64,000 bases of DNA from an uncultured Spirochaetales bacterium (GTDB lineage Bacteria > Spirochaetota > Spirochaetia > Sphaerochaetales > Sphaerochaetaceae). A program made the position numbers and the translations under genes. How positions within the stretch are numbered: the stretch's first letter is position 1; each line of letters starts with the position of its first letter. Of this stretch, positions 3,164 to 48,869 are shown one piece after another. Under the pieces are notes generated by a model that did not search any database, had not been told where the DNA came from, and saw only the letters and a program-made list of their open reading frames with translations. The stretch is from positions 1-64,000 of the forward strand of contig CASFTW010000009.1 of NCBI GenBank assembly GCA_949297785.1. The letters are read 5' to 3'.

Positions 3164-3194
3164 AAACTACCCCCCCCCGAAGACATTTTGTCAA
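3164..3194 (-). promoter_or_regulatory. Candidate phase-variable promoter with poly-G spacer
   Basis: On the minus strand a perfect TTGACA (3189-3194) is followed by a 19-bp spacer and TAGTTT (3164-3169). The last nine spacer bases are an uninterrupted G run (C9 at 3170-3178 on the plus strand) that abuts the -10. Loss of one or two G would bring the spacer to the optimal 17-18 bp. Slipped-strand change of this tract would therefore tune transcription of the BIG2 lipoprotein. Confidence 0.6.
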
Positions 3195-46718: not shown

Positions 46719-46970
46719 TACTACTCTGCTCCAAACTTTTAAGTATAATGCTTATACATTATTTCATCATTTTTGTCGAGTCGTTGTAATGTAAGAAATT
46801 AAGTAAACACGTATTCACTGGAAAGTTAAAGCGTATGAATAATAAAAACAAAAGATTACATGCCTAATTCATGTGTGGAAACTAAACAACGTTTTACAAA
46901 CACAATAACGTATAAATATAAGAAAGCCGGGCGCAAAAACCCGGCAGAATGATAAATTAAGCTCCTTCTA
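46719..46970. other. obgE upstream region and lipoprotein terminator
   Basis: An AT-rich stretch with the obgE promoter side at 46719-46800. GCCGGG and CCCGGC (46926-46945) followed by TTTCTTAT on the minus strand end the lipoprotein gene. No gene is seen. Confidence 0.6.
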
Positions 46971-47726
46971 TTACCAAGGGATATCAATTTCATCTGAAAT
47001 AATGAAAACAGCGTTTTCCACTATATAGTTGTTACTACCATCGTAGCTGTATACAACACCAGCAATTTCAATACAATAGCTATGTGTTGATGCTCCATCT
47101 CCATAATAATATTCTTCATAGATAGCAAAGTTGCTGATACCGTTATATTCAGAACTGAGGGTAATCGATATTTTCTTGACATCTGAGTCATCAGCACCTG
47201 TGCAATTATACACTATATCCAAAGTATAAGATTTTCCATCTATAGTATAATTTTCAACTTTCGATGTTCCTCTGACAGAACTTTTTGTAGTTACAGCACC
47301 GACAGAATACATCATATTCATAGCTGTTTCAGAAGAAATACTATTTCCATTATAGGTAAATGTCATTTCTCCGTTATCAGGCTCAGTGACAACAAGTCTA
47401 TCACCAGCCTTGAAACTTCCGGCGGAAGAAACAAACTCATAAACCATTGAGTCACCTTCAATATGTATAGCTGCAACAAGTTTGCTACCAGAATACAGGT
47501 ACTGAACGTCTTCTATAACATTGGAATTTGAGAATTGAGTCTCCCATGTTATTCCTTCAAGAATAGTTTCAATACTTGTTAAGGCATCTCCTTCCAAGAC
47601 GCCACTTGCTTCCGGCATCTGAATGAGATCAACTCCTTCTGCATCAGAGATACTCGGAGTGTCATTACTACATGAAACGGCGAAAACCAGCATAACTGCG
47701 GCCAAAATGCAAATTAATTTTTTCAT
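46971..47726 (-). CDS. Putative lipoprotein with poly-G promoter
   Basis: The 251-residue protein begins MKKLICILAAVMLVFAVSC, a lipoprotein signal peptide with lipobox VFAVSC. The mature domain is rich in beta-type strands, Ser, Thr and Tyr and is not recognised. ATG 47726 has GAGGGGG six bases upstream. The frame opens further to 47858, but only through the promoter. The AT-rich gene sits with the next one between rpmA and obgE, genes that are normally adjacent. Confidence 0.8.
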   Translation of the reverse strand: MKKLICILAAVMLVFAVSCSNDTPSISDAEGVDLIQMPEASGVLEGDALTSIETILEGITWETQFSNSNVIEDVQYLYSGSKLVAAIHIEGDSMVYEFVSSAGSFKAGDRLVVTEPDNGEMTFTYNGNSISSETAMNMMYSVGAVTTKSSVRGTSKVENYTIDGKSYTLDIVYNCTGADDSDVKKISITLSSEYNGISNFAIYEEYYYGDGASTHSYCIEIAGVVYSYDGSNNYIVENAVFIISDEIDIPW

Positions 47727-47818
47727 TGCATTCCCCCTCAATAAAACTAAGAATAGACGGAAATACCTTCCGACAAGCAGGGGATTAAACACAGATTTTA
47801 CCTCCCTACCTGAAACGG

Positions 47819-47845
47819 ATTCTATACCATCCCCCCCCCTGTCAA
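47819..47845 (-). promoter_or_regulatory. Candidate phase-variable promoter with poly-G spacer
   Basis: On the minus strand TTGACA (47840-47845) is followed at once by nine G (47831-47839), then ATGGTA and TAGAAT (47819-47824). The spacer is 15 bp, so gain of two G would give the 17-bp optimum. The start codon is about 93 bp downstream. Confidence 0.65.
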
Positions 47846-47989
47846 TAGGAACGAGCATGAATGAGTGAAAAAATTATTTTTTAACTTGAATTTTATTTGT
47901 AATTTATTTTATATAAATAAAATATTTTATTTTATAGATAATTTAGCGATTCTAATAAAAGATAATATCAGACAATGTATTAAATGAAC

Positions 47990-48018
47990 AAAAAAACAGG
48001 GACTGCAAAACAGCCCCC
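47990..48018 (-). terminator. Terminator of the Pro/Gly-rich lipoprotein gene
   Basis: On the minus strand GGGGCTG and CAGTCCC form the stem (one G-U pair), followed by TGTTTTTTTG. The 47846-47989 stretch beside it is very AT-rich, with no gene seen. Confidence 0.75.
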
Positions 48019-48045
48019 TTAAGAGAGAATACCGCTTATTAATCT

Positions 48046-48678
48046 TTATTCAACAGCTTTTCTAGTAAACTCAATAATTAACGGCTCTGTCCCAATAATC
48101 CCCTTTGCAACTAATATAATAGTATTTTCATCTTTTTGGGTAAAAACAAAACTTGCTGTTTTAGGATCTTCTCCCAATATAGAAATAATAATTTGGCAAT
48201 CCAAGTTATATTCTGATTTATTCTCACTGTTCATACTATCAGTCTGTTTTGTAATACTACCAGGAACTATATTCTCAGTTGAAACAGGTATGGTGCCCAA
48301 TGCTAACACTGAAAAACCACCATTTTCCACATTCAAAGTTCCCATAGAACTAGTGTAATTGCCATTCGCCCATTCAGGAACTTTCACAGCATCAGTTCCA
48401 AGATTACCAGATTCCTCATCTCCAGGTTCTTCTGGTTTAGGATCATTTCCTTCACCAGGATTCTCTGTACCTTCTTCACCACCCGGTTCTTCACCTGTAC
48501 CAGGATTATCTATATCTGGATTCTCTTCATCTCCACCAGGCACATCTGTACCAGGTTCTACTACTGGAGGATTACCTTCCGCCCCCCCCGGAGCCTTGTT
48601 TGAGTTGTCACATGATACTCCGAAAACAAGCACCATTGACACAAGGAGTGCTAACAACACATAAAACATTTTCTTCAT
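48046..48678 (-). CDS. Lipoprotein with in-frame poly-G tract and Pro/Gly/Glu-rich stalk
   Basis: The 210-residue protein begins MKKMFYVLLALLVSMVLVFGVSC (lipobox VFGVSC, Cys23). A run of eight G (C8 at 48582-48589) encodes residues 30-33 (P-G-G-A). A change of one base would shift the frame seven residues after the lipid anchor. A low-complexity stalk (about 34-85: PGTDVPGGDEENPD...EEPGDEESGN) follows, then a small C-terminal domain I do not recognise. ATG 48678 has GGAGGG eleven bases upstream. In this sequence the frame is open (ON). Confidence 0.8.
   Translation of the reverse strand: MKKMFYVLLALLVSMVLVFGVSCDNSNKAPGGAEGNPPVVEPGTDVPGGDEENPDIDNPGTGEEPGGEEGTENPGEGNDPKPEEPGDEESGNLGTDAVKVPEWANGNYTSSMGTLNVENGGFSVLALGTIPVSTENIVPGSITKQTDSMNSENKSEYNLDCQIIISILGEDPKTASFVFTQKDENTIILVAKGIIGTEPLIIEFTRKAVE
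48582..48589. repeat. C8/G8 homopolymer inside a lipoprotein gene
   Basis: Eight consecutive C on the plus strand lie in the coding region for residues 30-33. This is a candidate translational phase-variation tract. Confidence 0.8.
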
Positions 48679-48810
48679 AGTTTTCTGACCCTCCAAAAGT
48701 CATTTGAATTTATGTTAATCTAAACACATATTCTGTAAATAAAGAAGAGTTTGCGAACAAAAATATGTAAAATTGTTCGATAATTCCTAATTTTAATCAT
48801 TTTTCATGTT

Positions 48811-48840
48811 AAAAAAATCACCACGGTCTCCCATGGTGAT
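48811..48840 (-). terminator. rpmA terminator
   Basis: ATCACCA pairs with TGGTGAT. On the minus strand it is followed by TTTTTTT. It cuts the ribosomal protein operon from the lipoprotein genes. Confidence 0.85.
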
Positions 48841-48869
48841 CTCAAGTACAAATCAAATTGTATTAAAAC

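Follow-up and report, generated by a model that had tools for sequence, protein, structure and literature searches.

A poly-G promoter of a Sphaerochaetaceae lipoprotein gene: probable membership in a class-wide family of putatively phase-variable promoters and mobile-element targets

In a stretch of 64,000 nucleotides from an uncultured Spirochaetales bacterium of the family Sphaerochaetaceae (in the following referred to as the window), a run of nine G lies between the two hexamers of a putative promoter (47819-47845, minus strand) upstream of a lipoprotein gene. This raises the question whether the arrangement arose by chance, represents a promoter of fixed spacing, or serves as a switch that is tuned by changes in the length of the G tract.

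The promoter and the gene that it precedes

Read on the minus strand from 47845 to 47819, the site consists of the -35 hexamer TTGACA (47840-47845), the G9 tract (47831-47839), the hexanucleotide ATGGTA as the remainder of the spacer (47825-47830), and the -10 hexamer TAGAAT (47819-47824). The -35 hexamer is a perfect consensus, and its TTGAC recurs 5′ of poly-G tracts across the genus; the -10 hexamer matches the consensus at five of six positions and is conserved in the sister species G001. The composition given in the first-pass annotation, namely TTGACA directly followed by nine G and TAGAAT with a spacer of 15 bp, is exact when counted on the minus strand. As is characteristic of promoters of the tp0126/porA type, a homopolymeric G tract separates recognisable -35 and -10 hexamers. 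A sister promoter within the window (TTGACA-N10-G9-TAGTTT; 3164-3194, minus strand; spacer 19) lies 5′ of another lipoprotein gene.

The promoter is situated approximately 110 nt upstream of an orphan gene (46971-47735, minus strand) encoding a protein of 254 amino acids (MKKLICILAAVMLVFAVSCS...). Its annotation as a lipoprotein gene was borne out; the reading frame has its own Shine-Dalgarno (SD) sequence (GAGGGGG) 5′ of the start and the product, a predicted lipoprotein, carries a typical signal peptide with the lipobox AVSC. Searches against Pfam and NCBIfam assigned the protein to no family; its orthologue in G001 is 93% identical. Terminator-like hairpins are found on both sides, that of the upstream lipoprotein gene at 47998-48018 and another one 3′ of the gene, before obgE, at 46926-46945 (both minus strand), so that the gene appears to be transcribed singly, from a promoter of its own. 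The former hairpin in particular argues that the region containing the poly-G promoter must drive its own gene.

The G tract might also act on translation, as an open reading frame starting with the ATG at 47858 crosses it in frame and continues into the lipoprotein (295 amino acids). Although this frame is open in the window, it is broken in G001, where the distance between tract and ATG is shorter by one base. The DNA upstream of the tract in that species is part of an IS-like element (see below), the N-terminal extension is not conserved, and the signal peptide of the lipoprotein, preceded by its own SD sequence, begins at 47735. Translational phase variation was therefore rejected as very improbable.

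Both lipoprotein genes are inserted between rpmA and obgE (46719-48869), which are directly adjacent in most relatives. Relatives carry none or one of the two genes, the close relative L073 having only the upstream one, with a different C-terminal part. The coding sequence of this upstream gene contains a G8 run (48582-48589) that is kept as G8 in three species; the L073 protein diverges directly after this run and lacks the Pro/Gly-rich linker. According to its Obg matches, the host genome falls among uncultured Spirochaetales metagenome-assembled genomes (MAGs) adjoining Sphaerochaeta.

Recurrence of the design from the window to the phylum

Within the window, the pattern TTGACA-N15-20-TANNNT occurs twice, with 2.5 copies expected by chance, and these two copies (3164-3194 and 47819-47845) contain the only two G9 tracts of the window. 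Registers of the form GGGGGGGG were found five times versus 1.0 expected, a number that was reached by 2 of 100 shuffles. A chance meeting of a G run with a chance promoter is thus only mildly unusual on the scale of a single window, and this count by itself would not exclude it. The genome-wide count does: in the host genome, 8 of the 21 tracts of at least G7 have a TTGAC 0-14 nt upstream, compared to about 0.3 expected according to our own arithmetic from 5-mer odds.

The same holds for the genus, whose 16 genomes contain 46 distinct TTGAC-N0-14-G7+ sites versus 11 sites in the orientation control (TTGAC-N0-14-C7), with a control using the reversed pattern giving two matches only. At 37 of these 46 sites, a lipoprotein-type start with SD sequence follows within 150 nt, as it does at 16 of 20 sites in the genus g31. 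The corresponding values were 1.06% for random positions and 1 of 12 for G tracts without TTGAC; this lipoprotein association was counted in the genus and in g31, i.e., in Sphaerochaetaceae. On the family level, TTGAC-N0-14-G8 is present in 64 of 139 genomes, and carriers of the design include avian MAGs of Candidatus Ornithospirochaeta. The stricter pattern TTGAC-N6-14-G8-TANNNT was detected in 60 of 297 sampled Spirochaetota genomes, nearly all of them belonging to the class Spirochaetia, while its reversed control matched once over all 297 genomes. The nameable close relatives in these comparisons are uncultured metagenome bins, and one genome per species was compared.

The poly-G promoter design is hence far more widespread than the window shows. 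The enrichment at genus, family and phylum level, the orientation bias and the association with lipoprotein genes contradict a chance origin, which was rejected with practically no probability left to it. The proposal that the same design on unrelated lipoprotein genes is no coincidence agrees with the genus and phylum controls.

Spacer, tract length and the proposed switch

Two layouts can be distinguished, one in which the tract adjoins the -10 hexamer (as in 3164-3194) and one in which it adjoins the -35 hexamer (as in 47819-47845). The latter was also found as TTGAC-G7/8-N8/9-TANNNT in three further genomes (G012, G002, and G008) and as TTGAC-G10-N8 in another one (G015). According to the site listing, spacers of this layout are mostly 15-16 bp long in the genus, so that the 15 bp at 47819-47845 are ordinary and no outlier. 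For sites of the first layout in the family, the spacer length peaks at 19 bp (25 of 52 sites); in other families, most sites have spacers of 15-16 or 18-19 bp, and 17 bp was found at 10 of 92. As assembled genomes give the majority tract length only, these spacers cannot tell which state is the ON state. A promoter spacer composed of two homopolymers, T9 and then G9 (TTGACAATAC-T9-G9-TATCTT), was observed at locus L178 (G010:C1:16012-16038).

Runs of nine G are intrinsically slippery. We consider it about 80% probable that 47819-47845 is the sigma-70-type promoter of a single-gene lipoprotein unit, with its spacing partly set by the G9 tract and its transcription tuned by slippage. Slipped-strand mispairing at the tract would add single bases to the spacer or remove them from it, and the altered distance between -35 and -10 would turn transcription up or down, i.e., cause phase variation, as was shown for tp0126 of Treponema pallidum. 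The direct basis of this reading consists of the anatomy of the site, its recurrence, orientation and lipoprotein association, and the unequal lengths of other tracts that are orthologous or near-identical; slippage of 47831-47839 within populations and the ON or OFF state of the promoter at G9 are what we infer.

The closest known case is tp0126, which encodes an OmpW homologue and in which a poly-G tract between -35 and -10 likewise sets the spacing, with an optimum at 17 nt (PMC7864442). At the present site, by contrast, the gene belongs to a gut bacterium of the Sphaerochaetaceae and encodes a lipoprotein that matches no known family, and the tract abuts the -35 hexamer. The earlier suggestion of an OFF or low state that two additional G would correct is right in its arithmetic (15 + 2 = 17); by the tp0126 rule, G11 would be best and G9 weak at this promoter. 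Promoter-proximal poly-G tracts, as at the present site, are also known from the surface-protein genes tprE/G/J and tprL of T. pallidum, where they vary in vivo (PMC7864442). The tract of tprL, however, overlaps the -10 region, and the output of this promoter, high at G8, drops almost to background at G10 by a mechanism other than spacing (PMC7864442). Mechanisms therefore differ even among known poly-G promoters, and the spacing rule of tp0126 may not carry over. A spacing mechanism with a poly-G spacer between -35 and -10 is also described, in the account given in PMC7864442, for porA of Neisseria meningitidis, an unrelated organism in which a single porin gene rather than a lipoprotein repertoire is concerned.

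The main alternative, which we regard as unlikely, is a fixed promoter in which the G run is a conserved structural spacer or a regulator-binding element whose length has no functional variation. It would account for the fact that G9 predominates by far among the tract lengths of the family (33 of the 52 sites of the first layout) and that orthologous TTGAC-type tracts agree between species: the tract at 47831-47839 is G9 in both the window and G001, the only other species in which an orthologue was found, and the two other TTGAC-type tracts that can be paired are G9 in both species as well (three pairs in all). Against it, tracts of G7 to G13 are found in otherwise similar promoters, and other orthologous tracts are unequal between species (G8 versus G11, G8 versus G7). 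Near-identical paralogous promoters within one genome also differ, from G8 to G10 in G002 and from G9 to G11 in G055. Furthermore, of 17 poly-G tracts tested in T. pallidum, 76% vary within isolates (PMC7864442). The length differences seen elsewhere fit slippage and are no proof of switching at 47819-47845.

One orthologous G tract (G000:C1:161156-161163, L016, and G001:C1:128538, L216) is G8 in the one and G11 in the other species. It lies about 9 nt before the ATG of a lipoprotein gene, i.e., at the ribosome site and not in a promoter spacer.

An IS-like element beside the tracts

In G001, homology 5′ of the orthologue of 47831-47839 extends no further than the tract, its place being taken by a repeated element. 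Its insertion point corresponds to 47840-47843 (minus strand), where G001 reads TTGAC-element-GACA-G9 with a 3-bp duplication of GAC, and where the window is uninterrupted. At a second insertion locus in G001, the target duplication is CTA (3 bp), and the orthologue in the genome of the window is again uninterrupted. These joins rest on paired contig ends together with the empty orthologue, without spanning sequence; contig ends within the element are what a collapsed repeat would produce.

The transposase-side end (TGAACTGACCCCCTGAAGGTAGACA...) is present in four copies in G001, always at a distance of exactly 4 nt from G9 (contigs C1, C4, C6, C9, C13, and C18; loci L240, L244-L247, L251, and L252). 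Of the 14 distinct ends of the transposase side known from several species, 12 are separated from a G run by 0-4 nt, including one at the orthologue of 47819-47845 and one inside an interrupted tract; the remaining two appear to be remnants. In G088, two more ends, of the other type, adjoin G9-G10, and ends of related elements in the genus g31 adjoin poly-G as well (L262, L265, L267, L277, L292, L294, L296, L298, L269, and L299). At several opposite ends, TTGAC lies no more than 25 nt away, which is what an insertion into poly-G promoters would produce. A short MITE-like copy beside G9 was observed at L297.

The short (3-4 bp) target duplications at two G001 sites and the terminal inverted repeats of the TG..CA type (ends TGARCTGACCCCCTGAAGGTAGACA on both sides) are as in IS3-like elements. 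Of the OrfA/OrfB pair with a DDE integrase core that such elements encode, the assembled coding part covers a short, N-terminal OrfA-like helix-turn-helix fragment of 76 amino acids, which gave weak Pfam matches to helix-turn-helix families below the cut-off and no NCBIfam transposase above it. The TG..CA ends together with this fragment suggest an IS3-like element; as no complete copy was found, the longest stretch (G088, C13) holding only about 115 bp of it, the IS family is not proven. Scans of viral collections for the element ends or the OrfA fragment yielded no match, and tblastn searches of plasmids gave marginal matches only. Mobile elements that home to repeated sequences are known from the REP-targeting ISs (ISPsy8, ISPpu9/10, and others), which use a repeated extragenic sequence (PMC1525189); the present element, in contrast, enters promoters beside a G homopolymer, at a near-constant offset. 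Neither for an IS seeking poly-G tracts nor for poly-G promoter switching in Sphaerochaeta did the literature searched, with most subscription journals outside reach, contain a report.

Altogether, 47819-47845 genuinely belongs to a class-wide family of promoters that are probably phase-variable and that are also targeted by a mobile element. Among spirochaetes, the literature covered here reports poly-G promoter switching from the syphilis treponemes alone. Genomes from many genera of the Spirochaetia share this architecture, which in the Sphaerochaetaceae examined is mostly found at lipoprotein genes; its carriers are commensals and can be studied without a pathogen. The element next to the tracts provides a natural experiment on how much promoters tolerate, as well as a candidate for a homopolymer-directed transposase. 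We lean towards the view that many Spirochaetia keep a genome-wide lipoprotein repertoire under poly-G switches, and that an IS-like element has evolved to land there, repeatedly parting the -35 hexamer from the G run. If true, a transposon would have phase-variable promoters as its dedicated target niche, and cells would gain a second, longer-lasting route to silence or rewire the same lipoprotein genes.
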